From a virus: DNA of 26,958 bases. The DNA is taken from the IMG/VR virus record IMGVR_UViG_3300005939_000038, positions 1 through 26,958 of that record; one strand, 5' to 3'. The notes beneath the pieces were generated by a model that was not told the DNA's origin, searched no databases, and saw only the letters and a program-made list of their open reading frames with translations. This document shows, one piece after another, positions 12,001 through 26,958 of this stretch. Numbering within the stretch: position 1 is the stretch's first letter; each line of letters starts with the position of its first letter. The position numbers were made by a program, and so were the translations under genes.

Positions 12001-13338
12001 TTATTTCTTTGGTTTTGCTATTCCTGTTTGCCCCTCGGCAGTTGGTTTTGCATTTTCAACAACAGGGTTTTTTCCGGTGACAGGCCACAAATTCATAGCT
12101 CTGTATCCCTTGTCCGCACCAATGATTTTGTCTATGTCTAAGTTTATCCCTAATAGTTCGTCTGTGTCTCTGAGCGGTATTCCCATGCTATCCATTATTT
12201 TTGCACTTTCAAGTTTTGCCTTAAGCATCGGGAGAAGTGCGTCAACCTTTGATATGTCTATGGAGTATTTTACATCGTTGCCGTATTCGGGAGTAACTAA
12301 ATAAAAATTAACAGTATCAACAAATGACTTTAATCTTGGAAGTATTGAAAAGTCCCACAGGGATTGTTTTGCGGTTGGATAGTCACTTGAGTTTTGGCTA
12401 TTTCCGGGGTCAATTAGTGTTTCTGGGACTCCATACATTGCACATATTTGTGCTTGGCTTGCATTCCTTGACGCAACATAATCCATTTCTGTTGCATTAA
12501 GAGATAGCTGTTGATATTTTACGTCAGAGCCTAATATAAGCGGTACGCCTGAGTTTGGTGTTCCTAAAACGGTTTCGTGCATTGCTTCTGAGGCTGCCTG
12601 ATATTGATCTTCATCCATTGGATGAGTAAACATAAACGCTCCGGCTGGTTTACATCCATTTTCAAAAGATGTTTTTTGCCAATCGGCTGCGCTGTTGTCT
12701 GAATCAATGGTTGACGCTCCGGCCTGTGTCGCCCCTATTCCCTTGAATAGACTTGACGGGTCAACCTGCAAATAAGAAATTATATCCTTTGCCGGAATTT
12801 TTTGTATTGTTCCGCCAACATTATATTCATAATGAGAAATAAATTTGCTTTGAGATATTACAGGGGCAACATAGTCTGGGTTTAAAATCCACAGTTCTTT
12901 TGTTTTCCCCTTAAGTTTATTTTTAAAAAGGTAAAATGTTCCAGAAAGGTCTGACCTTGCTGACATAAACTGCATCAACATATCCCAAGTTAAAAACGGA
13001 TTAGGTTTTCTCAGGATGTCGTAGAGTTCGTGTTCTGGTTTCGCAAGTTCCCAACGGTTTCCTTTTCTTTCTTTTACAATCCACGGCGGATTTGCACAAG
13101 CACCCATATTCATTTTAATACAGGAGAAAACTATGGGGTTTATTTTGTATCCAAAGTCAACAGATTCTTGTAGGCTATAGTTTTTTGCGACTTTTTGGTT
13201 GTTTGCGGAAGATGGTATTACAATTCTGGTGGCTTTGCTTTTTTTCTGTATGGTGGGAACGCTAGGTTGGTCTAAAAGCTCCGCCCAAGAGTTATCTTGG
13301 TTAGGGTCGAGCTTTGTATCAATATACTTGGTTGTCAA
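12001..13338 (-). CDS. Portal protein, HK97 family
   Basis: 445 residues. Recognisable portal features: an INPIVFSCIKMNMG helix where the family has V-x-x-C-V/I-x-x-I, a PWIVKERKG strand, HELYDILRKPNPF, DLSGTFYLFKNK, LWILNPDYV, a VDPSSLFKGIGATQAG region, and YVASRNASQAQICAMYGVPETLI (in two pieces) followed by KQSLWDFSILPRL. Portals form the 12-subunit ring at the packaging vertex. Start is TTG (13336-13338): an in-frame TGA lies two codons upstream and the next Met is far inside. SD AGGTGA is 3-4 bases from the start. A good sigma-70 promoter lies upstream at 13377-13405. No terminase gene adjoins it. Confidence 0.9.
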   Translation of the reverse strand: MTTKYIDTKLDPNQDNSWAELLDQPSVPTIQKKSKATRIVIPSSANNQKVAKNYSLQESVDFGYKINPIVFSCIKMNMGACANPPWIVKERKGNRWELAKPEHELYDILRKPNPFLTWDMLMQFMSARSDLSGTFYLFKNKLKGKTKELWILNPDYVAPVISQSKFISHYEYNVGGTIQKIPAKDIISYLQVDPSSLFKGIGATQAGASTIDSDNSAADWQKTSFENGCKPAGAFMFTHPMDEDQYQAASEAMHETVLGTPNSGVPLILGSDVKYQQLSLNATEMDYVASRNASQAQICAMYGVPETLIDPGNSQNSSDYPTAKQSLWDFSILPRLKSFVDTVNFYLVTPEYGNDVKYSIDISKVDALLPMLKAKLESAKIMDSMGIPLRDTDELLGINLDIDKIIGADKGYRAMNLWPVTGKNPVVENAKPTAEGQTGIAKPKK

Positions 13339-15790: not shown

Positions 15791-16054
15791 TTATTCCTCT
15801 CCATTTTCTTGCGGCTCAAAAACCTCAAAACACCTTATTGCAAACAAAAAACCAGTAATTACATCAGCAGCCTCGCCCTTGGTATAACTTGCGCTATTTT
15901 CGGCAGCGGATAATAATGAAAAAAGACCATCTTCGCATTCAAAAAATGTTGGCTCTAATTCGTGCAAATATTGAACTATTGACAACATCTCTGTTTCGGA
16001 TATTCCTGCTACACTAAATTGGTCATTAGATTTTACAAAATCTTCGATACTCAT
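15791..16054 (-). CDS. Small acidic protein, unknown
   Basis: 87 residues, acidic, probably all-helical (EMLSIVQYLHELEPTFFE, GLFSLLSAAENSASY, AADVITGFLFAIRCFEVFE). Not recognised. ATG 16052-16054 with a strong AAAGGAG SD. It overlaps the previous stop by one base, so it is in the same operon and translationally coupled. Confidence 0.5.
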   Translation of the reverse strand: MSIEDFVKSNDQFSVAGISETEMLSIVQYLHELEPTFFECEDGLFSLLSAAENSASYTKGEAADVITGFLFAIRCFEVFEPQENGEE

Positions 16055-17154: not shown

Positions 17155-17317
17155 ACTTCCAGAACACGGACAGAAATGTCTTTTAAAAATGAAAAGCGGG
17201 ATTATAATTGGTGCCAAATATAACGATGACGGTCTTGGGTTAACTTGTTTTGTAAGAATTTTGTGTTTTAAATTTAGTATCGGTGTCGCAGAATATTGGA
17301 TGGAGCAACCGGAGTGA
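17123..17317 (+). CDS. DUF551-like small protein without an ATG start
   Basis: The open frame runs from after TAG 17114-17116 to TGA 17315-17317, in the +1 frame relative to the gene before it. From an ACG codon at 17123 it reads TKTNWILPKDKLPEHGQ, then CLLKMKSG, and ends VAEYWMEQPE. The start N-W-I-x-P-x-D-x-L-P-E-x-G-Q and end Y-W-M-x-x-P-E match the DUF551 family, in which the protein usually begins just before the W-I. ACG would replace the family's ATG. No strong SD is visible, so the start could be non-AUG, coupled, or reached by a +1 shift. The family's function is unknown. ATG 17189 would cut off the domain. Confidence 0.55.
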   Translation, partial: TKTNWILPKDKLPEHGQKCLLKMKSGIIIGAKYNDDGLGLTCFVRILCFKFSIGVAEYWMEQPE

Positions 17318-17481
17318 GCAACATTAAATACAAACTGGTAATACCAGAAAAAGAGCCAGCAGAAGAAGATAAAGAAAATAGAGTTTACCGTGGATTTTAT
17401 TTGCAGCCATACTTTACTGTTCACAATATTGAGGCAACAATTACAATTAACCTAGACGACAAGAAAGAAAAAAATGGTTGA
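17314..17481 (+). CDS. 55-residue protein, unknown
   Basis: Starts with GTG 17314, overlapping the preceding TGA by four bases (GTGA), with GGAG eight bases upstream; a longer TTG start (17296) is less likely. Charged N-terminal half (YKLVIPEKEPAEEDKENR), then GFYLQPYFTVHNIEATI, then a strand TITINLDD. No family recognised. Part of the tightly overlapped rightward chain. Confidence 0.45.
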   Translation: MSNIKYKLVIPEKEPAEEDKENRVYRGFYLQPYFTVHNIEATITINLDDKKEKNG

Positions 17482-17650
17482 CAATATTTGTAACATATAT
17501 GTAGATAACAGCGAGCGGACAATAATAATCTATTTAGTGCTTAACAATCCGATAGAGAGCATAGAAAGTACGGTTATCGTTGGCGATGGAAAGAAGTTAA
17601 ATGAAAATAAAGATGCAAAAAAACAAGACAGGTGGTTAAATAATGAGTAA
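17474..17650 (+). CDS. 58-residue protein, unknown
   Basis: ATG 17474 overlaps the previous stop by eight bases (ATGGTTGA). It reads MVDNICNIYVDNSERTIII, then YLVLNNPIESIESTVIVG, then a basic, polar end. Strands suggest a small beta protein. Not recognised. SD is weak; the overlap suggests coupling. Confidence 0.45.
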   Translation: MVDNICNIYVDNSERTIIIYLVLNNPIESIESTVIVGDGKKLNENKDAKKQDRWLNNE

Positions 17651-17888
17651 AGAAAAAGATTTGTTTTATATTATAACGCTTTCTGCTGAAAACAAAGATG
17701 GCGAGACTATTGTTGGCACATATTCTGGAATAATTGAAGACTGGGGACTAACTTCGATTCAGATATACGACTATATTTTTGATAAGTCTGAAAAAGATAT
17801 GATGAAGAAAAAACCAAAAGAAGGTGTCGCATGTTTGTTTTACAGTATTGAAGTAAACAAGAGACAACAGGATATTAAAAATGGCTGA
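17643..17888 (+). CDS. 81-residue protein, unknown
   Basis: ATG 17643 overlaps the previous stop by eight bases (ATGAGTAA); AGGTGG is a plausible SD. Beta-rich start (LFYIITLSAENKDGETIVGT, partly quoted), GIIEDWGLTSIQIYDYIF, then a basic segment and CLFYSIEVNKRQQD. Not recognised. Its end overlaps the zinc-ribbon gene by eight bases. Confidence 0.5.
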   Translation: MSKEKDLFYIITLSAENKDGETIVGTYSGIIEDWGLTSIQIYDYIFDKSEKDMMKKKPKEGVACLFYSIEVNKRQQDIKNG

Positions 17889-18102
17889 AACATTTGAAAA
17901 GAAACTGAGATTCGATCAAAGATGTATTTTCTGTAATACAAAATATTCTCTTTTTGAAAACAGTAAAGGCGGAGTATATTGTTCAAGATGCGGAAATGAA
18001 AGCGATGAGGAAACAATAATCGCAACAACTATAAAAAGACTAACAGATGTTTATCTAAGCGTTGGAGGAAAAATATTTCACAAAAAGATTACAAACAGTT
18101 GA
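17881..18102 (+). CDS. Small zinc-ribbon protein
   Basis: 73 residues with C-x-x-C at 15-18 (CIFC) and at 34-37 (CSRC), the spacing of a zinc ribbon. It has a basic N-terminus (EKKLRFDQR) and a helical acidic stretch after the ribbon. ATG 17881 overlaps the previous stop by eight bases (ATGGCTGA). The last 15 codons overlap the out-of-frame methyltransferase remnant (18059-18208), so its present C-terminus may be a by-product of a deletion. Confidence 0.5.
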   Translation: MAETFEKKLRFDQRCIFCNTKYSLFENSKGGVYCSRCGNESDEETIIATTIKRLTDVYLSVGGKIFHKKITNS

Positions 18103-18208
18103 CGATGGATACACTGACTGTGTAAGCAACTCAAGGCGATATCAGGCTCTTGGTAACTGCTGGACAATAGACGTTATTTGTCATATATTTAAAGGACTGA
18201 AACAATGA
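18059..18208 (+). pseudogene. C-terminal remnant of a cytosine-5 DNA methyltransferase
   Basis: An open frame of 49 codons that begins after TAA 18056-18058 and has only a TTG near its start. It encodes YFTKRLQTVDDGYTDCVSNS, RRYQALGNCWTIDVICHIF and KGLKQ. This matches the end of C5-methyltransferases (E-R-L-Q-T-x-P-D-x-Y-T ... S-x-x-x-R-Y-x-x-L-G-N-x-W-x-V-D-V-I), that is, motifs IX-X. All catalytic motifs (PCQ, ENV, F-x-G-x-G) are absent. It lies in the +1 frame relative to the zinc-ribbon gene, and its TGA overlaps the ATG of the next methyltransferase by four bases. Probably what is left of a gene partly deleted or replaced. Confidence 0.7.
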
Positions 18209-18912
18209 CAACAATATTCGGAGACTGCTTACAAATAATGAGTGGACTGAAAGACAATTCTGTAAACATGGTCTTGTGTGACCTGCCATACAGACAAACA
18301 AAATTAAGTTGGGATACAGAAATTGACTTAAAAGAATTGTGGAAACAATATGACAGAATAACAAAAGAAAATTCGGCAATACTTCTGTTTGGTCAAGAAC
18401 CATTTTCTAGCAGCCTTAGATTAAGTAATGTAAAAAACTATAAATATGATTGGTATTGGGAAAAAGAAAGATTAACAAATGTTTTTCAAGTAAAGAAAAG
18501 AGCAGGAAAAACAATCGAGACAATATCTGTGTTCTATAAAAAACAGCCAACATATAATCCACAAATGTTAATTCACACAGGAAAACCAGTAACAAACAGC
18601 CCAAAAGGAAATCACACAGGCACAAGTGCCACAAATTTAATTAAAGTTACACCATATGTAGATAACGGAACAAGATATCCTACACAGGTTCTTAAATTTA
18701 ATCGTGACAAGTCAAAATTACACGAGACACAAAAACCTTTAGCGTTATGTGAGTTTTTAATTAATACATATACAAATCACGGAGATGTTGTTTTGGATAA
18801 TTGTGCCGGCTCTGGAACAACAGGTTTAGCGTGTAAAAATACAGGGAGAGATTGTATATTAATTGAAAACGATAAACATTATTTTGATGTTCTTACGGAA
18901 AGGCTAAGATAA
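18205..18912 (+). CDS. DNA methyltransferase, N6-adenine or N4-cytosine type
   Basis: 235 residues. Catalytic motif IV is DLPY (26-29, in MVLCDLPYRQTKLSWD), which varies from DPPY and is common in phages. Motif X-like HETQKP is at 173-178, and the S-adenosylmethionine site CAGSGTTG is at 200-207 with a following IEND. The catalytic motif before the AdoMet motif indicates the beta arrangement. Target base and site are not visible. It would methylate phage or host DNA, perhaps to avoid restriction. ATG 18205 overlaps the TGA of the C5 remnant by four bases, with SD AAAGGA. The C-terminus ends normally (ERLR). Confidence 0.85.
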   Translation: MTTIFGDCLQIMSGLKDNSVNMVLCDLPYRQTKLSWDTEIDLKELWKQYDRITKENSAILLFGQEPFSSSLRLSNVKNYKYDWYWEKERLTNVFQVKKRAGKTIETISVFYKKQPTYNPQMLIHTGKPVTNSPKGNHTGTSATNLIKVTPYVDNGTRYPTQVLKFNRDKSKLHETQKPLALCEFLINTYTNHGDVVLDNCAGSGTTGLACKNTGRDCILIENDKHYFDVLTERLR

Positions 18913-19262
18913 TGAAAGAAAAAGCAAAATACACAATTATACAATATAGAGAAAACTTTGAAGCAGTAAATATCGGCATAGTGGTTATAAAAGAAAAGGG
19001 TTGCGATTACCAAATGACATCTGACACTTCAAGGATTCAATTATTGTTCCCTCAGATTAGCGTGGAGAGAACCAAGATCGCAATCGGGTTTTTTCAATAC
19101 CGTCTCAGAGAAATTAAAAACGAGACTGAACTAATAAAATTTATGTCAACCAGAGCAAATGAAATAAAGTTTACAAAATTGCTTCCGATGGTTATTACTG
19201 ACAATTATGACATAAACAAAGAGTTTAGATATTTTGTCAAAGTAAACCCAAGCACAATTTAA
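18912..19262 (+). CDS. DUF3037-like protein
   Basis: 116 residues. The N-terminal strand-loop (KYTIIQYRENFEAVNIGIVVI) fits DUF3037 proteins, which start with Y-x-x-x-R/Q-Y ... V-N-I/V-G-V/I. The rest has LLFPQISVERTKIAIGFF and a helix with a basic end. Function unknown. ATG overlaps the previous stop by one base, so it is coupled to the methyltransferase. It is shorter than many DUF3037 proteins. Confidence 0.55.
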   Translation: MKEKAKYTIIQYRENFEAVNIGIVVIKEKGCDYQMTSDTSRIQLLFPQISVERTKIAIGFFQYRLREIKNETELIKFMSTRANEIKFTKLLPMVITDNYDINKEFRYFVKVNPSTI

Positions 19263-19317
19263 ACAAAAAAATACAAACCGAGACTGGCCAGCTTCAAAGA
19301 AAAAGTATGGACTTATT

Positions 19318-19419
19318 TTAAGTCTTCTCAATAAAGTCGTCACATCGGGATTTAGCACCATCACAATCAATATTGCCACACTTCTTGCATTCGTGAAAAT
19401 CTTTGTGGTTATAAATGAA
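19318..19419 (-). other. Start-less 33-codon Cys-rich frame after the TAA of the 61-aa gene
   Basis: Immediately after the TAA at 19420-19422, in the same frame, 33 sense codons follow before the next TAA. They encode FIYNHKDFHECKKCGN, then IDCDGAKSRCDDFIEKT: Cys at 11, 14, 19 and 26 would suit a small zinc-binding protein. There is no ATG, GTG or TTG; the only near-cognate codons are early ATTs. It may be made by stop readthrough, by AUU initiation, or be a decayed gene. Confidence 0.4.
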
Positions 19420-19605
19420 TTATTCTTGCTCCGCCTCCAGACATTCTTCCGGTCTGACTGTATCTTCACCGTCACATTTTAGGTTTAAACTTCCGTCTGT
19501 AAGATAACCACGCAAACATATTCCCCCAAAAGCCTCATTACAATCGCCACAATGAACGCCATCCTCGTCTGGAGTAATTTCTACAGGTATTGTAAAAGAT
19601 TTCAT
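19420..19605 (-). CDS. Small Cys-containing protein, unknown
   Basis: 61 residues: MKSFTIPVEITPDEDGVHCG, then DCNEAFGGICLRGYLTD, then a C-terminal LKCDGEDTVRPEECLEAE. Phages often encode small proteins with C-x-x-C ... L-x-x-D/G ... R-P-x-x-C-L, likely zinc-binding. ATG 19603-19605 has SD AAGGAG immediately after the TAA of the start-less frame at 19615-19743. An in-frame, start-less extension follows its own TAA. Confidence 0.55.
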   Translation of the reverse strand: MKSFTIPVEITPDEDGVHCGDCNEAFGGICLRGYLTDGSLNLKCDGEDTVRPEECLEAEQE

Positions 19606-19614
19606 GAAGTCTCC

Positions 19615-19743
19615 TTAAATTTCAAAATACCACGCCATAGGTTCGCCATAACTCCATCTTGTATAAAAATCACAAGAAAACTCAGGCTCTATTAGTTGAA
19701 TAAACATATGGTTGCCAACTTCAATAAACTCACAATACTCGTT
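19615..19743 (-). other. Start-less 42-codon frame after the TAA of the 201-aa gene
   Basis: Directly after TAA 19744-19746, in the same frame, 42 sense codons encode NEYCEFIEVGNHMF, then IQLIEPEFSCDF, then YTRWSYGEPMAWYFEI. This looks like real coding sequence: aromatic-rich, no repeats, and ending exactly at a TAA that precedes the next gene's SD. The only ATG is 13 codons in (19707) and lacks an SD. It may be a readthrough extension of the upstream protein, a gene using a non-AUG start, or one that lost its start. Confidence 0.42.
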
Positions 19744-20349
19744 TTATACCCCGTGACTTCTAAGCCATTTTTCAACAGCAAATTTTGCATCGTCAACACA
19801 AGACTCATAGACAGTTAAAGAAAATGACGGAATTAAAGCACCATCAGTATAAATCTTTCCAGACTCCGCAACATAGGTGCAACCACTGTCATATTCTTTT
19901 AAATATATTAAAATATCTCCAAGCACCAATATTGACTTTAAAGAATAGTTCACGGGGTTATTTCTATCAACCCACTCAAACTCATCCGGCAAGTCAATAA
20001 ACAATAATCCCAGTCTAGTATTCATGTCAAGCCCTCCATCCATAGCCTTTTTGTAATCAGTTTCGCATCTATCGTCACAATCTTCTTCAATATATTCTCT
20101 CTCTCTTATCCATCGCTCAACGGCTCTACAAACTTTGCCGAGATCATCACTGTGAAATCCCGTGAAATCAAATAGATAACCAACATCAATGTACTTGTCG
20201 CAGCCTTTGCTAAATACACCACAGTAACAGTCGTAAAGCGTCCCGTTTTTAAATGTTGTGAAACAAAACTTTCCAACCTCAAGATTGCTATATTTGTCCC
20301 ACTCAAAAACATCTGGCAAATCTCTAAATACTAAATCAACTGTAGCCAT
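19744..20349 (-). CDS. Protein with two copies of an unknown ~90-residue domain
   Basis: 201 residues from ATG 20347-20349 (SD GGAG nine bases upstream); earlier in-frame starts lack an SD. It contains two copies of the same domain. The first (about 10-95) begins DLPDVFEWDKYSN and ends VCRAVERWIRERE; the second (about 118-201) begins DLPDEFEWVDRNN and ends AKFAVEKWLRSHG. Both have a central strand pair with tyrosines and a final helix with E-R/K-W. Family and role unknown. The domain duplication is easy to see. The in-frame extension after its TAA is described separately. Confidence 0.55.
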   Translation of the reverse strand: MATVDLVFRDLPDVFEWDKYSNLEVGKFCFTTFKNGTLYDCYCGVFSKGCDKYIDVGYLFDFTGFHSDDLGKVCRAVERWIREREYIEEDCDDRCETDYKKAMDGGLDMNTRLGLLFIDLPDEFEWVDRNNPVNYSLKSILVLGDILIYLKEYDSGCTYVAESGKIYTDGALIPSFSLTVYESCVDDAKFAVEKWLRSHGV

Positions 20350-20458
20350 GTCAAAAATCTCCATATAAATTAACAATAAAAACACAATAACACACTAAAA
20401 CCAAAAATACAAGATAAAAATTAAAAATAATTTTATGCTGGTCACACAAAAAAAAACC

Positions 20459-20487
20459 TTGACATAACGGTAATAATGTTCTAATAT
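20459..20487 (+). promoter_or_regulatory. Rightward promoter of the 20516-23057 gene chain
   Basis: TTGACA (20459-20464), 17-bp spacer, TAATAT (20482-20487). The following ACACACAACTTAAA resembles the leader after the promoter at 16784-16812. SD AAAGGAG precedes ATG 20516. Confidence 0.72.
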
Positions 20488-20515
20488 ACACACAACTTAA
20501 AAAGGAGAAAACAAA

Positions 20516-21232
20516 ATGAGTGAAAATTTCGTACAAGATGCTTTTGAAAAAATAGTTAATTATGAAAAAGAAATCAGGGAGACGTTAGCCAGTGTAGAGC
20601 CTAAACTGCGGGCATTAGAATCCGGCGATGACTATTTGTCTGGAAACAAACAGGCACAAGACTTACATCTACAAATGACAAGTCTTGTCAAAAAGATAAA
20701 TATGGAACTAGACAAAATGAAAGTAAAAGACACAAAACAGCTAGAAGCAAATAATGCTACTCTAAAACATATTCAGCAAGTTCAGAGAATTATGACTGTG
20801 TTTATTCAGGACCTTATGGATCGTATGCTTTTGCATGACCAAAGCAAGCTGCATTCACCAGAATCAGAGACATTCGCAAAGTATACCGCTAAGCTAAAGG
20901 GTTCTACCTATGGGTCAGATGAATATAAACAATTCCTTTCAGAAATGAAACCCGCATTGGATCATCACTATGCTAACAATTCTCACCATCCAGAGTATTA
21001 TGAGAATGGTATGGAAGATATGACGCTGCTTGATCTATTGAAATTGCTTTGTGACTGGAAAGCGGCCACCATGCGTCATGACGATGGAGACATCGTGGAG
21101 TCTCTGAAAATTAATGCTAAGAGATTTAACATGTCTTCTACGATGGTTAATATATTGCGAAATACGATTGTAGCCTTTGGATTAGATAAGACTCCGGCAG
21201 GTCTTGATTCGCTGCATCCGGCCCAATTATAA
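20516..21232 (+). CDS. DUF5662-like phage protein (HD/HH-rich)
   Basis: 238 residues. N-terminal helical region (about 1-95), then a C-terminal domain with LLHDQSKLHSPE (H107, D108), HHYANNSHHPEYY (150-162), MTLLDLLKLLCDWKAATMRH (169-188), and RFNMSSTMVNILRNT at the end. The H-D-x-S-K, H-H-P-E-x-Y and C-D-W-K-A pattern fits DUF5662 and looks like a metal-dependent HD-type hydrolase, though activity is not proven. Strong SD and a consensus-like promoter precede it. First gene of the rightward cluster. Confidence 0.7.
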   Translation: MSENFVQDAFEKIVNYEKEIRETLASVEPKLRALESGDDYLSGNKQAQDLHLQMTSLVKKINMELDKMKVKDTKQLEANNATLKHIQQVQRIMTVFIQDLMDRMLLHDQSKLHSPESETFAKYTAKLKGSTYGSDEYKQFLSEMKPALDHHYANNSHHPEYYENGMEDMTLLDLLKLLCDWKAATMRHDDGDIVESLKINAKRFNMSSTMVNILRNTIVAFGLDKTPAGLDSLHPAQL

Positions 21233-21251
21233 TAAACAAAAAGGGATTAAA

Positions 21252-21551
21252 ATGAAAGTAAAAGAACTGGTAGAATATATAAAGACAAACAACCTTGAAG
21301 ACTTCGACTTGAAAATAAACATTTGCGGAATAAACAAATCAATAAAACAGGAAGGATACCCAACATTATCTGAATCGTCTGACGATATTGAATTTGGGGA
21401 CATTGGATATTCTGATAAAATCTGGTCACTCGATATTGATGCTCCAGATGTTGTTAGTAAATATTTATATGACAATCTTTTGGTTGACACTGTTGCAATG
21501 GCTGTAAACTTAAGTGACGTTACAAAACTTTTAAACATATTGGGGAGATAA
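21252..21551 (+). CDS. Small protein, unknown
   Basis: 99 residues from ATG 21252 (SD AAGGGA); an earlier in-frame ATG (21204) lies inside the previous gene and has no SD. It starts MKVKELVEYIKTNNLEDFDL, then KINICGINKSIKQEG; the acidic middle has DDIEFGDIGYSD, and the end is helical (NLLVDTVAMAVNLSDVTKLL). Not recognised. It is followed three bases later by the next start. Confidence 0.5.
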   Translation: MKVKELVEYIKTNNLEDFDLKINICGINKSIKQEGYPTLSESSDDIEFGDIGYSDKIWSLDIDAPDVVSKYLYDNLLVDTVAMAVNLSDVTKLLNILGR

Positions 21552-21554
21552 ATA

Positions 21555-22106
21555 ATGAGTGAAATAATATTTATGGAAGATGACAAAGCGGCAGAATACA
21601 AAGAAGTTAAGGTCAAAGGCTGGGTGGCAAACGGTTTGCTATTTAGTGAAAATGAGCGTGCTGCTAGGCTTGAGGGAATGACACATAAAGAATGTAGCCA
21701 ATGTGGAATGGCGTTTGATAAAAAGTCTTTCTACACTTTATGCCCTTCCTGTTTGGCAAAGTCTGAAAGAGATAAGTATTCTAATCTAGCATATGAAAAA
21801 TGGGACGGAAAAACACCAATGGCTTTATATGATTCTGATGAATATTTTTACGATGAATATGACGTTGATTGTTATTGTGAAGAAAACGATTGTGATATTG
21901 GAGACTTAATGTTGGTTTTGTGTGTTTCACAAACTGTTCACGAGCTTGAAATGGTAGACATTTACAATGATATACTTCCAGAAGACGGAGACGAGAGTTC
22001 CTTTCCACAAGATGTTGTTGACGCTTTCGACAACCTAAACAAAGTGATATCAGAAAACAAAGAACCTGTTTCTTGGTGGGCAGGAAATATTAGAACTTCG
22101 GTCTAA
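21555..22106 (+). CDS. Phage protein with zinc ribbon and acidic tail
   Basis: 183 residues. After a 20-residue start (SEIIFMEDDKAAEY) comes GWVANGLLFSENERAARLEG, then MTHKECSQCG (Cys47, 50) and FYTLCPSC (Cys63, 66), a zinc ribbon. A central KYSNLAYEKWDGKTPMALYDSD segment precedes a very acidic region (DEYFYDEYDVDCYCEE), and it ends SWWAGNIRTSV. Similar multi-part proteins with G-M-T-H-x-x-C-x-x-C are found in large phages; function unknown. ATG 21555 has no strong SD but lies just after the previous stop. Confidence 0.58.
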   Translation: MSEIIFMEDDKAAEYKEVKVKGWVANGLLFSENERAARLEGMTHKECSQCGMAFDKKSFYTLCPSCLAKSERDKYSNLAYEKWDGKTPMALYDSDEYFYDEYDVDCYCEENDCDIGDLMLVLCVSQTVHELEMVDIYNDILPEDGDESSFPQDVVDAFDNLNKVISENKEPVSWWAGNIRTSV

Positions 22107-22121
22107 AAGGGAGAATAAAAA

Positions 22122-22604
22122 ATGCCAATAGTACCCAAAAAATGGTTTGAGATGGAAATTGAAAAGAGAACTGGCAGACCATATAAACAATCAGACCCAA
22201 GAAATCTCGCAACACCTATTAATAATCATTATGAAAAATTTATAAATATTACTGGATTCGGAAAAAAACATTGTAAAAACTGCAATATGATGAAAGATGA
22301 ATATACAGGAAGCGAACATGAGTTTAGCTGTGTCGTTTTTAAGTCTGGCAACGACTTGACATACGATGAGGAACACGATGATTTTATTCGGAGTGGAGAA
22401 TGCTTTAAGGATGAGCTTTATTCTAATCAACTGTCATCAATGGTTAGAAATTCTAAGAGGATGTTTCTTGATCTTGAATGTGCCATTGAAGTCATTGAAG
22501 AATATCATGGTTTATATTATAAGAAGGAGGAAGACCAAATTTGTAGTGATGATCTGTTGGCGATTTTTAAAAAGCACTTTAACAAAATTAAGGAGTGCCA
22601 ATAA
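22122..22604 (+). CDS. Cys-containing protein, unknown
   Basis: 160 residues. PIVPKKWFEMEIEKRTGR and the middle NHYEKFINITGFGKKHCKNC (in part) precede Cys51, 54, 70 and 94, arranged like a zinc or disulfide site. A helical, acidic C-terminus (CAIEVIEEYHGLYYKKEED) leads into the next gene. Not recognised. ATG 22122 has SD GGGAG; its TAA abuts the HNH gene's ATG. Confidence 0.5.
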   Translation: MPIVPKKWFEMEIEKRTGRPYKQSDPRNLATPINNHYEKFINITGFGKKHCKNCNMMKDEYTGSEHEFSCVVFKSGNDLTYDEEHDDFIRSGECFKDELYSNQLSSMVRNSKRMFLDLECAIEVIEEYHGLYYKKEEDQICSDDLLAIFKKHFNKIKECQ

Positions 22605-23057
22605 ATGAGCGATAGAAACGAAAATCAGTATACAAAATACAGAAAAACAAAATGTGAGAAATGCGACAAACACCAAAGACTATTCAAAAGGATGCTTGAC
22701 GTTCACCACATTAATAAAGACAAGACAGACAATAGAGAATCAAACCTAATTACCGTCTGTAGAGCTTGCCACGCCAAGATTCACTGCGAAGACGGAACTT
22801 GGGGCAGGGGTAGACTCGCAATACAGACCTGCGAGCTATGTGGGCGAGAATTTACAAACCCTCAAGGCAAAAAGAAAGCAACATGCTCAAAAGAATGTTT
22901 CCAAGTGATTATCGGACTGAAAGAAAAAGAAGAAATATACAACGATAAAGAAAAATTGGCATGGCTAATAATATACAAGCTGAAACACAAAAACATGAAG
23001 CCACACAAAGAATTACAAAAATTAATCGACAACGGTAAACAAGAATGGATGGAGTAA
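22605..23057 (+). CDS. HNH endonuclease
   Basis: 150 residues. Cys17/Cys20 (CEKC), DVHHINKDKTDN (32-43; His34, His35), NLITVCRACHAKIH (47-60; Cys52, Cys55, His60) give the zinc-bound HNH core in which a metal-binding H-H/N/H set cuts DNA. A second zinc site, CELCGREF ... ATCSKEC (76-98), and a basic helical end follow. Phage HNH enzymes can be homing endonucleases or packaging-linked nucleases. No terminase or intron is next to it, so a free-standing homing or accessory nuclease is likely. SD AAGGAG; the previous TAA abuts the ATG. Confidence 0.82.
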   Translation: MSDRNENQYTKYRKTKCEKCDKHQRLFKRMLDVHHINKDKTDNRESNLITVCRACHAKIHCEDGTWGRGRLAIQTCELCGREFTNPQGKKKATCSKECFQVIIGLKEKEEIYNDKEKLAWLIIYKLKHKNMKPHKELQKLIDNGKQEWME

Positions 23058-23160
23058 TCGTGAAAACAAAAACAAACCTACGGGGCATAACCGCAAAAAA
23101 CCAAATTATATAAAAAAAATACTAGCAAAATTATGGGGACACAACACAAAAAACCACTTT

Positions 23161-23188
23161 CTAATAAAAAAAATAAGAATAAATTTAT
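23161..23188. repeat. Flanking repeat, left copy
   Basis: CTAAT, eight A, TAAG and then GAATAAATTTAT, 12 bases identical to 24568-24579. It overlaps the end of the deoxyribosyltransferase-like gene. With the right copy it brackets the two-gene cassette. Confidence 0.4.
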
Positions 23189-23535
23189 GGTTTCTTCCGA
23201 CTTTCCCACTCGTCTATCATTCTTGGAAAAGATTTCCCCTCCCCATAGGAAACATTTTTAATAACAACTATTTTCTTTTTAAGCGCGAACAAAACACCAA
23301 GGTCAAAATGACTGCCAAATGATGTTTTATCAAAAAAAATATGGGCCTCATCGCACGACATCATGGCCTCGGTGTTTTGTTCGCAAATATTAATACCGGT
23401 TTCGCCTTGGTTTGTATCTCTGTGTGGAAAGTGAACCGTATGCCCAATAGATTCAAGACCTGACACATATCCCGTTAAAGACTCAAGGTCTCCGTCACTG
23501 CAATTTCTTACACTGCAAACCAAATAGATATTCAT
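23185..23535 (-). CDS. Nucleoside 2-deoxyribosyltransferase-like protein
   Basis: 116 residues. Start MNIYLVCSVRNCSD; GHTVHFPHRDTNQ (31-43); ICEQNTEAMMSCDEAHIFF (50-68, with Glu52 and Asp62); SFGSHFDLGVLFALKKKIVV (72-91). The fold signature (I-Y-L-x-C/G-S start, H-F-P-x-R-D-T, a helix with D-E-A/V-H, S-x-G-S-x-F-D-L-G) matches short phage members of the nucleoside 2-deoxyribosyltransferase-like group. These may act on nucleotides or modified bases. SD AAAGGAG; ATG lies two bases after the stop of the radical SAM gene, so the pair is an operon. Confidence 0.72.
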   Translation of the reverse strand: MNIYLVCSVRNCSDGDLESLTGYVSGLESIGHTVHFPHRDTNQGETGINICEQNTEAMMSCDEAHIFFDKTSFGSHFDLGVLFALKKKIVVIKNVSYGEGKSFPRMIDEWESRKKP

Positions 23536-23537
23536 CG

Positions 23538-24500
23538 CTATTCTCCTTTATACAAGTTTAAACTTTTATTTATTCTTTTAAGGCTTGTGTGCCTTGTGTT
23601 TAAAAAATCTTTAAATGACTTCTTTTTGAAAAATCCAGCCTGATTACACCAAGCGCTTATGTCTTTATAAAAATTGTCGTTCTGTGACCCATAACAATCA
23701 ACATCTCTCATAATGTAGGGTAAATATTTTCTTTCCTTAAGCCAAGAAATCCTATCGACAATATTAGATATTTCCATGTCTGGGTGGCAATAAACAAAAA
23801 ACTTTAATTTCCAGTCTTTAGCCCAATCAAGAAGTTTTATTTTCTTTTCTATAAGTTTCAAATACGACCAGTCATCAAACGCAAAGATGTATTCTCCTTC
23901 GTAATTAATATTGCTCAATAGTATCGAGTTCTCAGAATCAACTAATCTTAAATCTAACCCCTGATTAAAACTACATCTTATTTTCTTATCTACAATCTCT
24001 TGCAGTATTTCTTTATGGTTCGGGAGGGCAAGAATGTTGTTGTCCATAAATTTAACAACCTTATGCCTGACTATATCGCTAATGAAACCAACCTGTCTTA
24101 TATGCCCCTCCTTCTTGGGTACTTTACAAAAGTAGCAATTTCTTATGCACCCACGGCTTATAAATCCATAGGAAACTTTGTTTTCTGGATATATGCCGTA
24201 GTCGGGCAACAAGCATTCAATATGGTCTGGCAAATCTTTATCAAGAGAATATCCCGTTCCGCCAAAGTCAATATCATCGCCATGTATCCACCCCAAATTT
24301 CCATCAAAAACAACACTACAATATATTTTATCATAAATGCCAGAAGAAAAAGAATAATGCCGCTTATTTCTCGAAGGATAATAGGGCAAACCAAGCCGAC
24401 AAAGAGAGATCGTATCGCCAATAGATTTGTGATAAGCACTTAGCTTCATAAGAGCTAAATTAGGTATTTTCGAGTCTGCATCAATCAATAATATTTTCAT
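23538..24500 (-). CDS. Radical SAM enzyme
   Basis: 320 residues from ATG 24498-24500. SRGCIRNCYFCKVP gives C-x3-C-x2-C (Cys118, 122, 125), the iron-sulfur/SAM-binding signature; GYGFISRG-like context and later FMDNNILALP and FAFDDW fit the barrel. The first 100 residues (MKILLIDADSKIPNLALMKL) look like a B12-binding-type N-terminal domain, as in many such enzymes. Substrate unknown; phage neighbours with deoxyribosyltransferases suggest nucleotide or DNA-base chemistry. No SD is visible; a promoter-like -35/-10 places the start point at the ATG, so the mRNA may be leaderless. A start 12 codons earlier also lacks an SD. Confidence 0.82.
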   Translation of the reverse strand: MKILLIDADSKIPNLALMKLSAYHKSIGDTISLCRLGLPYYPSRNKRHYSFSSGIYDKIYCSVVFDGNLGWIHGDDIDFGGTGYSLDKDLPDHIECLLPDYGIYPENKVSYGFISRGCIRNCYFCKVPKKEGHIRQVGFISDIVRHKVVKFMDNNILALPNHKEILQEIVDKKIRCSFNQGLDLRLVDSENSILLSNINYEGEYIFAFDDWSYLKLIEKKIKLLDWAKDWKLKFFVYCHPDMEISNIVDRISWLKERKYLPYIMRDVDCYGSQNDNFYKDISAWCNQAGFFKKKSFKDFLNTRHTSLKRINKSLNLYKGE

Positions 24501-24507
24501 AACAAAG

Positions 24508-24536
24508 AACATAACACAAAAACAACAACAATGCAA
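24508..24536 (-). promoter_or_regulatory. Candidate promoter for the radical SAM gene (leaderless)
   Basis: Minus strand: TTGCAT (plus 24531-24536), 17-bp spacer, TATGTT (plus 24508-24513), then seven bases, then ATG. The hexamers match the consensus only partly. If used, the transcript would begin at or near the A of the ATG. Confidence 0.4.
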
Positions 24537-24552
24537 GGGAAAAAGCGTTTTT

Positions 24553-24579
24553 GCTAAAAAAAATTACGAATAAATTTAT
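24553..24579. repeat. Flanking repeat, right copy
   Basis: GCT, eight A, TTAC and then GAATAAATTTAT (24568-24579). Imperfect copy of 23161-23188. Both lie in the same orientation on either side of the radical SAM/deoxyribosyltransferase pair. Confidence 0.4.
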
Positions 24580-24600
24580 TAGGGCAATACAGACGTTAAA

Positions 24601-24724
24601 TGTAACAACAGTACTGTTATTACAAATAGGGGGGGGGTAATGTAACATAAGCACTGTTATTACATTCAAATGTAACATAAGAAGTGTTATTACATTCAAA
24701 TGTAATATATGTACTGTTGTTATA
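24601..24724. repeat. Four 24-bp dyad repeats (iteron or operator array)
   Basis: Copies at 24601-24624, 24641-24664, 24671-24694 and 24701-24724. The shape is TGTAAYA-n10-TGTTRTTACA or close. The first is nearly a perfect palindrome (two of 24 positions off, centred on GTAC). Copies 2-4 are spaced exactly 30 bp apart with TTCAAA between them. A run of nine G (24629-24637) separates copies 1 and 2. Probable binding sites for a dimeric regulator or replication initiator. Confidence 0.7.
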
Positions 24725-24750
24725 TTCAAAATCCGGTCGGTGTTTTTTTT

Positions 24751-24827
24751 CGTATTTCGGATTATCATATTTCATAAAGCCATATTTCGGAAATACGTAT
24801 TTCATAAAGTCATATTTCGGAAATATG
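24751..24827. repeat. Second 30-bp tandem array with CATATTTC/GAAATATG dyads
   Basis: TTCATAAAGN then CATATTTCGGAAATA repeats with a 30-bp period (24771-24795 and 24801-24825, one base different), preceded by a partial unit at 24751. CATATTTCGGAAATATG at 24811-24827 is an 8-1-8 perfect inverted repeat. A further exact copy lies at 25263-25279 in inverted context and a diverged one at 26533-26559. Confidence 0.68.
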
Positions 24828-24838
24828 GAAATAAGGAC

Positions 24839-24868
24839 AAAAAAATGACCGACCATTCAGGCCGATCA
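24839..24868 (-). terminator. Intrinsic terminator of the 79-aa gene
   Basis: Minus-strand RNA: GAUCGGCC, loop UGAAU, GGUCGGUC, giving an 8-bp stem with two G.U pairs plus an outer U-A pair, followed by seven U (plus 24839-24845). It lies 20 bases after the stop at 24889. Confidence 0.75.
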
Positions 24869-24888
24869 AAGTATTCTTTTTAGTTATA

Positions 24889-25128
24889 TTACATATAACT
24901 ATCAATCAATTTATAAACTGTATCATATATCTCATCTCCGTAATTTTCAGCAAGCTGAAAAGCCACATGTTCGCTGAGAAGATAGCCTTCCCCAGTTGCT
25001 TTTATAATGTTGCCTTCTTCGCTATTTAGTGCTTCGTTTATTTCACCGCTAACATCATCAATATTTATCTCGTTATCTTCACAATATGATTCTAGGCTTA
25101 ATAAGTTTTTTCTGTTTTCGTTTGTCAT
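24889..25128 (-). CDS. Small acidic protein driven by promoter cassette 1
   Basis: 79 residues, strongly acidic. NRKNLLSLESYCEDNEINIDD (partly quoted), then GEINEALNSEEGNIIKATGEG, then YLLSEHVAFQLAENYGDEIYD and a final helix. Phages encode similar small proteins with a T-G-E-G-Y-L-L-S-E ... Q-L-A-E-N-Y-G-D-E-I-Y-D end; function unknown, and acidic early proteins sometimes mimic DNA. ATG 25126-25128 with SD AAGGA. Single-gene unit: perfect-hexamer promoter before it (25180-25207) and an intrinsic terminator after it. Confidence 0.6.
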   Translation of the reverse strand: MTNENRKNLLSLESYCEDNEINIDDVSGEINEALNSEEGNIIKATGEGYLLSEHVAFQLAENYGDEIYDTVYKLIDSYM

Positions 25129-25179
25129 TTTCTGTATCCTTTTTATTAAGTTAAAAAATATTTCCGACTTGCAAGATTG

Positions 25180-25207
25180 ATTATATAGAAATGATTTTAT
25201 ATGTCAA
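25180..25207 (-). promoter_or_regulatory. Promoter cassette 1 (perfect hexamers, 16-bp spacer)
   Basis: Minus strand: TTGACA (plus 25202-25207), 16 bp, TATAAT (plus 25180-25185). Upstream is an AT-rich stretch starting CTGGTAAAAATAAAC and ATGCATTTTTTAC. Nearly the same cassette occurs at 26104-26131 and 26456-26483. Confidence 0.8.
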
Positions 25208-25262
25208 GTAAAAAATGCATTTTATTTTAGTTTATTTTTACCAGTCTATTTTTTAAGATATT

Positions 25263-25290
25263 CATATTTCGGAAATATGACTTTATGATA
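25263..25290 (-). promoter_or_regulatory. Dyad element between tandem promoters
   Basis: Minus strand: ATCATAAAGTCATATTTC and then CGAAATATG. Matches the 24801-24827 array unit in the opposite orientation. It sits about 55 bp upstream of the cassette-1 -35 and about 40 bp downstream of the 25329 promoter -10, a suitable place for a repressor or activator. Confidence 0.5.
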
Positions 25291-25328
25291 TATGCATATG
25301 TGAAAAAACTTTTTTAGGTCGTCAATCC

Positions 25329-25358
25329 ATTATACCAAAAAACAAAATGTTATGTCAA
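25329..25358 (-). promoter_or_regulatory. Second upstream promoter (perfect hexamers, 18-bp spacer)
   Basis: Minus strand: TTGACA (plus 25353-25358), 18 bp, TATAAT (plus 25329-25334). It would read through the dyad into cassette 1; no gene starts in between. Confidence 0.65.
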
Positions 25359-25379
25359 GCTTTATTTTAAAAAATGCAC

Positions 25380-25411
25380 AAAAAAAACTGATATGAATAA
25401 ATCATACCAGT
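25380..25411 (-). terminator. Intrinsic terminator after the 103-aa gene
   Basis: Minus-strand RNA: ACUGGUAUGA, loop UUUAU, UCAUAUCAGU (10-bp stem with one G.U), followed by seven U. It lies about 20 bases after the stop at 25431 and closes the three-gene cassette-2 operon. Confidence 0.78.
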
Positions 25412-25430
25412 GATTCCTTTTTGTTATGGT

Positions 25431-25742
25431 TTAGAATCCCTGAATGATAAAACCCGCCTCGCATGGGATTTCTATTAATGTTGTGGCATTGCTTATATCC
25501 TCAAGAGTCTGATAATCCTCTCTGCCATATTCCTCTTGAAAATCAGCAAGACTGTCATATTCGTAATAGTCGCAACAAATAGCTATAACATCAAAATCAA
25601 TATTTTCGTCTATATCCTCGCTTAGTTGCTCAAGATATTCGTATAATGCTTTTCTGCCTTCATAGGAGAAGTTATCCGGTCGTCCTGCTAATCTGAAAGC
25701 ATCGCAAAATTCATATTCTGACACTGTATTAATAATTGCCAT
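25431..25742 (-). CDS. Small acidic protein of a widespread phage/plasmid type
   Basis: 103 residues, very acidic. INTVSEYEFCDAFRLAGRPD, then NFSYEGRKALYEYLEQLSED, then FDVIAICCDYYEYDSLADFQ, then YGREDYQTLEDISNATTLIE and FIIQGF. The pattern N-F-S-Y-E-x-x-x-A-L-x-x-Y-L-E ... D-V-I-A-x-C-C-x-x-x-E-Y ... T-T-x-I ... F-I-I-Q-x-F is seen in small proteins of phages and plasmids; function unknown. ATG 25740-25742, SD AAGGTGG. Third gene of the cassette-2 operon and followed by a terminator. Confidence 0.62.
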   Translation of the reverse strand: MAIINTVSEYEFCDAFRLAGRPDNFSYEGRKALYEYLEQLSEDIDENIDFDVIAICCDYYEYDSLADFQEEYGREDYQTLEDISNATTLIEIPCEAGFIIQGF

Positions 25743-25758
25743 TGTATACCACCTTTTT

Positions 25759-25878
25759 TTAAATTACGAGTAAAATTATAAAAACGATTATAGCAGCTAA
25801 GCCTAGTAAAACATCTGAAAGCCAGCTAATCAAAAACCTGTCTGTCAATCCCAGTTTTTTTATTTCCTGTTTAGTCAT
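25759..25878 (-). CDS. 39-residue predicted membrane microprotein
   Basis: ATG 25876-25878 to TAA 25759-25761. A basic N-terminal half (MTKQEIKKLGLTDRFLIS) and one strong hydrophobic segment (WLSDVLLGLAAIIVFIILL) ending VI: a single membrane helix with the charged part probably cytoplasmic. Strong SD (AAAGGAG) and an eight-base overlap with the previous stop (ATGACTAA) support it as a real gene. Function unknown; holin, lysis-inhibition and host-membrane effector roles are all possible. Confidence 0.6.
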   Translation of the reverse strand: MTKQEIKKLGLTDRFLISWLSDVLLGLAAIIVFIILLVI

Positions 25879-26053
25879 TGTTGACACTCCTTTTTTGTTC
25901 AGTGTTTATAATTCTCTGCCTGATTGATTTGTTTATTGATTTGAGATTTTTAAAGCTCTTGCCCGATATCACTCCCTCATTTTGATATCTTGTTACAACA
26001 TCAAACAATATTTTTCTTGTTTCGCTTAAGATTGCAATCTCTGCCTCATTCAT
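25871..26053 (-). CDS. Small helical protein, first gene of the cassette-2 operon
   Basis: 60 residues: MNEAEIAILSETRKILFDVV, then TRYQNEGVISGKSFKNL, then KSINKSIRQRIINTEQKR. Probably all helix, basic C-terminus. Not recognised. ATG 26051-26053 with SD AAAGGA. Transcribed with the membrane microprotein and the 103-aa protein from the promoter at 26104-26131. Confidence 0.52.
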   Translation of the reverse strand: MNEAEIAILSETRKILFDVVTRYQNEGVISGKSFKNLKSINKSIRQRIINTEQKRSVNND

Positions 26054-26103
26054 AATTTATCCTTTTGTTTTAAGTTGTAAAACTATTTCCTTAACTGTTA
26101 TCT

Positions 26104-26131
26104 ATTATATAGAAATGATTTTACATGTCAA
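26104..26131 (-). promoter_or_regulatory. Promoter cassette 2 (perfect hexamers, 16-bp spacer)
   Basis: Minus strand: TTGACA (plus 26126-26131), 16 bp, TATAAT (plus 26104-26109). It is almost identical to cassette 1. Its upstream AT-rich part (from about 26167) encodes the last codons of the gene at 26151-26405. Confidence 0.8.
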
Positions 26132-26150
26132 GTAAAAAATGCATTTTATT

Positions 26151-26405
26151 TTAATTTATTTTACCAGCCCTGTACCCTTCCAAAAATCCTAAAATAAAAT
26201 CATATAAGTCTACAGATAATTGGCCTTGTCTGTATTGATAAATTTCAATTTTATCGCCACTGATCGCACTTGTGCCATTATATTTTTTTGCAAACGGCCA
26301 AATCCTGTCATAAAATTCCTTAAAACAGGAGTATTCCTCAAAACACTTTAATTCTTTTTGACGTATCGTGATTATCAGGTCTAACTCGCCATCATGTAAA
26401 AACAT
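26151..26405 (-). CDS. Small protein driven by promoter cassette 3
   Basis: 84 residues: MFLHDGELDLIITIRQKELK, then CFEEYSCFKEFYDRIWPFAK, then NGTSAISGDKIEIYQYRQG, then LYDFILGFLEGYRAGKIN. Not recognised. ATG 26403-26405, SD AAGGTAGG. Its last codons (AGKIN and TAA) come from the conserved start of cassette 2, so the gene's end has been joined to that module. Promoter at 26456-26483; no terminator follows. Confidence 0.52.
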   Translation of the reverse strand: MFLHDGELDLIITIRQKELKCFEEYSCFKEFYDRIWPFAKKYNGTSAISGDKIEIYQYRQGQLSVDLYDFILGFLEGYRAGKIN

Positions 26406-26455
26406 CTTATACCTACCTTTTTAAAGTTGTAAAATTATTTCCTTATCTGCTATCT

Positions 26456-26483
26456 ATTATATAGAAATAATTTTACTTGTCAA
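26456..26483 (-). promoter_or_regulatory. Promoter cassette 3 (perfect hexamers, 16-bp spacer)
   Basis: Minus strand: TTGACA (plus 26478-26483), 16 bp, TATAAT (plus 26456-26461). The AT-rich upstream part begins CTGGTAAAATAAATT, as in cassette 2, and the leader AGATARCAGWTAAGGAAAT is also shared. Confidence 0.8.
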
Positions 26484-26532
26484 GCTTTTTTTTAATAAAA
26501 ATGCATTTTATTTTAATTTATTTTACCAGTTC

Positions 26533-26559
26533 AAATTTCCGATATATGCATTTATGAAA
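26533..26559 (-). promoter_or_regulatory. Diverged dyad element upstream of cassette 3
   Basis: Minus strand: TTTCATAAATGCATATATC and GGAAATTT. Resembles the unit at 24801-24827 and 25263-25290. About 50 bp upstream of the cassette-3 -35, matching the cassette-1 layout. Confidence 0.45.
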
Positions 26560-26632: not shown

Positions 26633-26731
26633 GGTTTTTTTTGTTTTATTTTAGTCAATAATCAGAGTGTTATTTTTTTCTGTTTGTCAAGTTATTTTTT
26701 TAAAATAAGCAAAAAAACTTGTGCCTCTATA

Positions 26732-26804
26732 TTGCCTTGTATGCTTTTATATTCAAGTTTGAATAGTATCATAAGCATAATTGATAACACGTCATACAAG
26801 GCAA
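26732..26804. repeat. Long inverted repeat with inner hairpin
   Basis: TTGCCTTGTATG (26732-26743) and CATACAAGGCAA (26793-26804) are perfect inverted copies 49 bp apart. Inside, ATTCAA-GT-TTGAAT is a small hairpin and ATGCTT/AAGCAT also pair. Could be a structured RNA, attachment-like site or operator. Confidence 0.6.
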
Positions 26805-26958
26805 GCTAAGAGCAAATAACAGGTTATATCTACCATAACCGACAAGTTGTAAACTAAACTTTACTATCTCAATTCTTTAGTAAAGCATCTTGGCATGGAT
26901 TTTAAAATTGACAAAAATGTCGTGGTTTGACTATGCATAATGTACCTTATAGGTATAC

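Follow-up and report, generated by a model that had tools for sequence, protein, structure and literature searches.

The window analysed here, the whole 26,958 nucleotides of IMG/VR virus record IMGVR_UViG_3300005939_000038, is a fragment of a tailed phage. It carries a repeated intergenic module in which a perfect TTGACA-16-TATAAT promoter is followed by a conserved leader and a Shine-Dalgarno (SD) sequence. A sequence-only reading had counted three such modules; that number is too low, since at least seven members of the family occur in this phage. The copies are best read as a family of early promoter-plus-leader cassettes that would be used by host RNA polymerase of the sigma70/sigmaA type and would form a divergent early regulon, a reading given a probability of about 0.8. 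Many take-over genes would then probably be switched on together at the start of infection.

Anatomy and extent of the cassette family

The same phage is also present in a longer IMG/VR contig, IMGVR_UViG_3300031227_000034 (70,968 bp), found with a strict promoter pattern. All 2072 of 2072 compared bases are identical between the two records, and four queried proteins are 100% identical. Arithmetic alone places the window's reverse complement at about 23274-50231 of the longer contig. Two stretches of that contig served as separate loci: L014, 19.9 kb from its left part, and L032, 21.4 kb that mostly repeat the window. The phage encodes an HK97-type capsid and portal (Pfam, PHROGs), in contrast to T4-type phages, and the portal's relatives in INPHARED are less than 31% identical (best 10 of 493). 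No match to TerL_ATPase (PF03354) or integrase (PF00589) was found in the 70,968-bp record.

Within the window, modules of about 115-125 bp stand in front of the genes whose starts lie at 26405, 26053, and 25128, on the minus strand and where the earlier reading had placed them:

26406-26529, minus strand: cassette c3, with A/T-rich upstream stretch CTGGTAAAATAAATTAAAATAAAATGCATTTTT, promoter (26483-26456), leader, and SD
26054-26167, minus strand: cassette c2, overlapping the end of an open reading frame (ORF) of 84 amino acids (aa); promoter 26131-26104
25129-25244, minus strand: cassette c1, with the most diverged leader of the three; promoter 25207-25180

The perfect -35 and -10 hexamers claimed for all three are indeed there at 16-bp spacing. 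All three also share the CTGGTAAAA start, the ATGCAT, and, ahead of the SD, an AACTT stretch, which in c3 reads AACTTTA where AACTTA had been stated. In fixed blocks, identity from -35 to -10 is 25-27/28 across the three pairs, whereas the leaders agree at 37/50 positions between c2 and c3 and at 21-22/50 in pairs with c1. Longer matches reach 97% over 59 nt (c1-c2) and 91% over 65 nt (c2-c3). Near the promoter c2 is like c1, and over the leader it is like c3; an insertion of 10 nt separates ATGCATTTTT from the -35 hexamer in c3. The leaders of c1-c3 have no notable fold (-1.6 to -2.2 kcal/mol, z 0.2 to -0.5), and Rfam gave no match in the window.

Chance is a poor explanation for three perfect promoters. 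The window's three 16-spaced sites compare with a mean of 0.03 and a maximum of 2 in 400 order-2 Markov sequences, and a 2.4-kb region holds four sites of 16-18 spacing against a mean of 0.017 and a maximum of 1 in 2000 Markov sequences. The fourth site has a context of its own and falls outside the module family:

25329-25358, minus strand: extra perfect promoter TTGACA-18-TATAAT (25358-25329), with TG before the -10, upstream of c1

Four further, diverged copies lie past the window's right end on the opposite strand, at 22996, 20740, 20130, and 17291 of the longer contig; they are called the left arm, and the copies within the window the right arm. A search with c3 alone detects the divergent copy at E 6.7e-10, and a consensus scan adds three more minus-strand copies with equal spacing and leader. 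All seven copies, split four and three between the strands, face away from a single stretch of about 670 bp (about 23032-23702 of the contig) that has no ORF above 60 aa. The contig holds nine perfect promoters of 16-18 spacing, four on the plus strand (23749-25052) and five on the minus strand (four at 17264-22996, one at 1770), and 9/9 point outward from this spacer, the five minus-strand sites on its left and the four plus-strand sites on its right.

Reciprocal profiles built from one arm provide an independent test of the family. When searched against the window, L014, and L032, the c1-c3 profile gave 22996 (E 1e-4), 20130 (0.049), and 20740 (0.053) as its best non-self matches, while the profile of the four left copies returned c2 (5e-5), c3 (6e-5), and c1 (0.006); the best reversed-sequence decoy of these tests scored 4.2 bits. 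A seven-copy model, trained on the copies that it finds and run on the entire 71-kb record with E up to 10, gives seven strong matches, all within 17.2-25.1 kb. Three weak matches accompany them: 1725-1813 (E 0.016), which covers the perfect promoter at 1770; 16006-16051 (0.34), where a leader lacks a promoter; and 21523-21593 (6.1).

TTGACA-16-TATAAT is perfect in 7/7 copies, which were partly selected by this feature. The copies share CTTGACA and then TATAAT, with a spacer of the form ATYATTNSTA in 6/7. The start codon follows the -10 by 36-51 nt, across a AACTTAAAAAGGATA-type leader that ends in an (A)ACTT/ATTT-AAAAAGGATA-like sequence with a ribosome-binding site. The 40 nt before the -35 are UP-like, at 70-90% A+T against a background of 64-65%. 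Similarity among copies ranges from about 97% identity down to barely detectable.

Genes behind the copies and the borders between them

Very small leftward genes do follow the window modules as the earlier reading had it, except that c2 leads a run of three ORFs (60, 42, and 103 aa) instead of one:

26151-26405, minus strand: 84-aa ORF following c3; family matches reach E 0.06 at best; the terminal codons (G-K-I-N-stop) consist of c2 sequence
25871-26053, minus strand: 60-aa ORF that opens the c2 run; family matches reach E 0.08 at best
25759-25887, minus strand: 42-aa (GTG start) or 39-aa (ATG start) ORF, second behind c2; C-terminal half hydrophobic
25431-25742, minus strand: 103-aa acidic ORF, third behind c2; phrog_9974, a widespread phage family
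25387-25411, minus strand: terminator-like hairpin and T run after the 103-aa ORF, argued from position
24889-25128, minus strand: 79-aa ORF behind c1 and the extra promoter; no family match better than E 0.06
24846-24868, minus strand: terminator-like hairpin and T run after the 79-aa ORF, argued from position

Terminator-like sites number 5 against 5.2 in shuffles, so they are not enriched. The window's small genes receive no functional assignment in Pfam, PHROGs, NCBIfam, or PADLOC, whose models cover defence and not anti-defence. The left arm encodes small proteins without assigned function plus a DnaN-like beta clamp behind the 17291 copy (TIGR00663, E 7e-37, 127.2 bits, just missing the curated cut-off of 137.65; PHROG 947). 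The first genes behind the copies have no mutual blastp match better than E 0.9 (the 19-aa ORF behind 20740 was left out); because they are mutually unrelated, the cassette seems to have multiplied without its first gene.

The cassettes also meet the genes upstream of them. The K-I-N-stop end that had been attributed to c2 is confirmed: the 84-aa ORF ends GGT AAA ATA AAT TAA within the cassette. More broadly, the proposal that genes are joined at the module holds for its anatomy, as in 4/7 copies (c2, 20740, 20130, and 17291) the preceding ORF has its stop codon at the cassette or within it. A 146-aa ORF before the 20740 copy crosses the -35 and stops at the TAA of TATAAT, the ORF upstream of 20130 has its stop at -11 to -9, the point from which that copy is homologous to the 20740 one, and the ORF upstream of 17291 stops at -13 to -11. 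In these four copies the cassette is the whole space between the end of one ORF and the start of the next; c1, c3, and the 22996 copy have no such upstream ORF of 40 aa or more. This ORF-to-ORF arrangement fits the idea of a gene joint and a compact genome equally, and it is compatible with possible gene exchange at the cassette. The joints offer a concrete place to look for such exchange when genomes of relatives become available.

The 103-aa gene is the only one with relatives among the 84-, 79-, and 103-aa locus queries. Its family comprises 58 IMG/VR loci including this phage, and RPDNFSYEG is invariant in 39 aligned members. Its predicted model is confident (pLDDT 87.7). Foldseek found nothing for it in the PDB at E<0.001, while BFVD gave four matches at E<=0.001, two to uncharacterised phage proteins and two nameless. 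Within 300 nt upstream of the 58 loci, a promoter matching at 11-12/12 positions occurs in 3/58 in the sense direction and 0/58 in antisense; because only 3/58 have one, strong close-upstream promoters are not a general companion of this family. For the 79-aa protein, five single-sequence models diverge (pLDDT 89 to 44), and the PDB search result, which was empty at E<0.001, was therefore not used.

Weighing the early-regulon reading

The earlier claim of a strong early promoter cassette driving small genes agrees with the hexamers, the A/T-rich upstream DNA, the leader with its SD, the unrelated first genes, the common orientation, and the replication gene; high output is a prediction from these features. 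As the phage enters, the host's RNA polymerase, still unmodified and carrying the housekeeping sigma factor, would fire all copies at once and start two diverging early programmes with like translation leaders. Small genes for host takeover or against the host might thereby be expressed early and abundantly from the window arm, and small genes and the replication clamp from the other arm, each mRNA bearing the same kind of efficient leader. Copies would have arisen via repeated duplication of the cassette minus the gene behind it. Later shut-off, for which the dyads beside c1, c3, and the divergent copy are candidates, is a guess only. A bolder version, in which the cassette is a self-spreading regulatory joint, an intergenic unit copied to new gene borders that captures incoming small genes into a two-arm, dyad-tuned early regulon, is speculative and improbable.

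Several points weigh against the early-regulon reading. The attribution to host sigma70 is presumptive, being drawn from the TTGACA/TATAAT consensus, which many phyla, though not every one, use as their standard housekeeping pattern. The c1-c3 profile reaches 20130 and 20740 at E about 0.05 only and misses 17291. Perfect promoters are not rare in phages: 9 of 28 other chosen records have some, 6 of these 9 having been picked by matching a promoter pattern, and one of the 28 has six in 33 kb, denser than here. Not all genes behind the copies are unrelated, since the runs behind 20740 and 17291 share one paralog pair (L014 16640-16873, behind 20740, and 12277-12504, farther on than the clamp; E 5e-13, 37.5% over 56 aa). 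Both contigs may be incomplete.

As to the setting of the paralog pair, one member lies just before the 20130 cassette, and the other follows a leader-like sequence (L014 12552-12507) that has no promoter.

The cassette might also, or mainly, be a recombination joint for swapping small genes between phages, as proposed for T4-type early-promoter cassettes; this is possible but doubtful. The 2010 work of Arbiol et al. reportedly describes T4 'mobile regulatory cassettes', an early promoter plus stem-loop at gene borders beside small variable genes, and is said to propose shuffling. Upstream ORFs that end at or inside 4/7 cassettes would suit such a joint, as would the unrelated first genes. So would the 146-aa ORF that runs through the -35 to TATAAT before 20740, and the end of the 84-aa ORF, which is cassette sequence lying in no listed same-strand ORF in c1 and c3. 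However, stop codons running into promoters are common in compact phage genomes. The mosaic of c2, matching c1 at the promoter and c3 in the leader, involves few sites and is explicable by one diverged leader and one insertion. The stem-loop of the T4 PeSL cassette was not found in the three window leaders. Within this one genome the cassette stands before different genes; no second phage with the cassette was found in the IMG/VR, GTDB, INPHARED, and PLSDB searches, hence no swap was seen.

A phage regulator binding sequence beyond the hexamers (the spacer ATCATT, the leader, or dyads) would instead make the set a repressible or activated regulon, not a constitutive one, which is again rather unlikely. 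The spacer is kept in 6/7 copies although sigma does not need it, and dyads lie next to several cassettes:

25263-25279, no strand: operator-like dyad CATATTTCnGAAATATG, just upstream of c1
26532-26548, no strand: degenerate CATATTTCnGAAATATG copy with 2 mismatches, just upstream of c3
24781-24797 and 24811-24827, no strand: further CATATTTCnGAAATATG copies

At up to 2 mismatches the CATATTTCnGAAATATG dyad occurs at only these four places in the window, all in the cassette region, and a perfect TGACATTAATGTCA dyad lies directly upstream of the divergent 22996 copy. Yet the two dyads differ in sequence and sit outside the conserved cassette, spacer conservation may reflect common descent, and no regulator gene was identified in the phage, nor a PF00589 integrase match in the longer record.

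That the copies are a recent local duplication without function is very improbable. The c1-c2 and c2-c3 identities would fit it, but the hexamers are perfect in all copies despite diverged flanks. Recent simple duplication, which the sequence-only reading had offered as the alternative, is disfavoured because the copies range from about 97% identical to barely detectable, face opposite ways in two arms, and precede unrelated first genes; older, diverged copies occupy the other arm, and the first genes were not co-duplicated. Equally little weight attaches to repeats of a replication origin or packaging site instead of promoters. The copies flank the ORF-poor divergent stretch and one heads a sliding clamp gene, but they spread over 8 kb, are strictly oriented, and each end at a start codon with perfect hexamers.

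Searches for the module elsewhere covered databases from which records close to the window may be missing. No related phage with the module before other genes turned up with exact degenerate patterns in IMG/VR and GTDB genomes, and blastn in INPHARED and PLSDB found the module in no other virus or plasmid. In IMG/VR, the strict promoter pattern matched two stretches, which both belong to this phage's longer contig, and a looser spacer pattern 18, four of the same phage and 14 others with one match each. Those 14, judged by eye, showed no such leader, although L018 breaks off 9 nt past its promoter and the additional perfect promoters of L017, L020, and L023 were left unaligned. A promoter-plus-leader pattern gave five stretches, four of the same phage and one unrelated by eye. 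Protein queries (84-aa, capsid, 79-aa, and the 167-aa ORF behind 20130) returned the same phage only, in scans that reach close relatives only, and no title or abstract on this cassette was found in openly licensed literature. A lone promoter at one Patescibacteria locus, from the scan of GTDB genome contigs, was taken as chance.

In kind, the layout is ordinary, and its likeness to T4 and kayvirus early promoters and the archaeal-virus early motif is one of arrangement, none being matched in sequence. T4-like phages have many near-consensus early promoters for host polymerase, with UP-like A-rich DNA and extra conserved positions, often before novel ORFs (PMC2988021, PMC1524935). Near-consensus promoters, UP-like DNA, and extra conserved positions recur here, whereas the T4-like -35 is GTTTAC-like with TGn before the -10 (PMC1524935, PMC2988021), against TTGACA and a 16-bp spacer here; TGn precedes the -10 in 0/7 copies and TTGACA is present in 7/7, so both of these T4 features are absent. 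Kayvirus has 58 strong sigma70-consensus early promoters by RNA-seq with host-dependent expression; these have a 17-bp spacer and extended -10 and control 26 transcription units that hold 81% of genes, against one compact divergent region here (PMC7698491). The SAS/ESAS elements of cluster K mycobacteriophages combine a 13-bp GGGATAGGAGCCC with 17-bp inverted repeats in about half of cases. Like the present repeat, they lie immediately before start codons, the genes concerned belong to various families and are not part of the structural module, and one orientation prevails (PMC3203893, PMC12699233). No GGGATAGGAGCCC precedes the start codon here, where the leader is AACTTAAAAAGGATA-like by eye, and the layout differs too.

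The likeness is strongest of all to the early regulatory sequence of archaeal viruses. SIRV2-type viruses place one conserved early motif before anti-defence genes, with early expression and some anti-defence functions measured (PMC11065993). In both systems a single conserved regulatory sequence, strong there and strong-looking here, recurs in front of numerous small genes that are unrelated to one another, although one gene here, the clamp, is neither small nor without a known relative; the motif there is an archaeal BRE/TATA and here a bacterial -35/-10, and the roles here are read from sequence. If the cassette marks immediate-early genes, it would provide a label, legible in the sequence itself, that singles out small genes without assigned function as host-takeover or counter-defence candidates in an uncultured phage, as in the archaeal-virus work. 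The cassettes also form a set of strong-looking, sequence-related candidate early promoters of graded divergence.

Repeats and cassettes beside the family

A different promoter-leader cassette, of the TTGACAGTTGTCCCACATTATGCTATAAT type, occurs in four copies at 71-1679 of another record (L037, IMGVR_UViG_3300030104_005545), each followed by a small ORF. Three of these have perfect hexamers, one is 7 changes from the commonest form, and a relative of the 103-aa gene follows one of the four. This parallel suggests that the layout arises repeatedly in phages.

Other repeats lie near the family. Dyads of the TGACAnnnATGTCA type cluster at 22013-23045 of the longer contig, between or beside early genes, with exact copies at 22013 and 23032. 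At 24599-24728 of the window there are four copies of a near-palindromic 30-bp repeat, TGTAACA..AG.ACTGTTATTACA, iteron- or operator-like, upstream of a radical-SAM-like ORF (24536-23538). Inside this array, in an A/T-rich region, a run of nine G (24629-24637) is a possible slippage site.

The heptamer ACGAATT has 31 occurrences on one strand and none on the opposite strand over 7 kb (contig about 15.0-22.0 kb; L014 11501-18500, minus strand), against a mean of 2.8 and a maximum of 8 in 200 order-2 Markov sequences; the window has two. The sites lie inside and outside ORFs, with 10 within about 650 bp at 21275-21923. The plus strand of the divergent stretch at 26700-26958 of the window folds better than shuffles (z -3.2, 0/200); this is the strand that leads away from the window's early genes, and the other strand gives z -1.6 (13/200).

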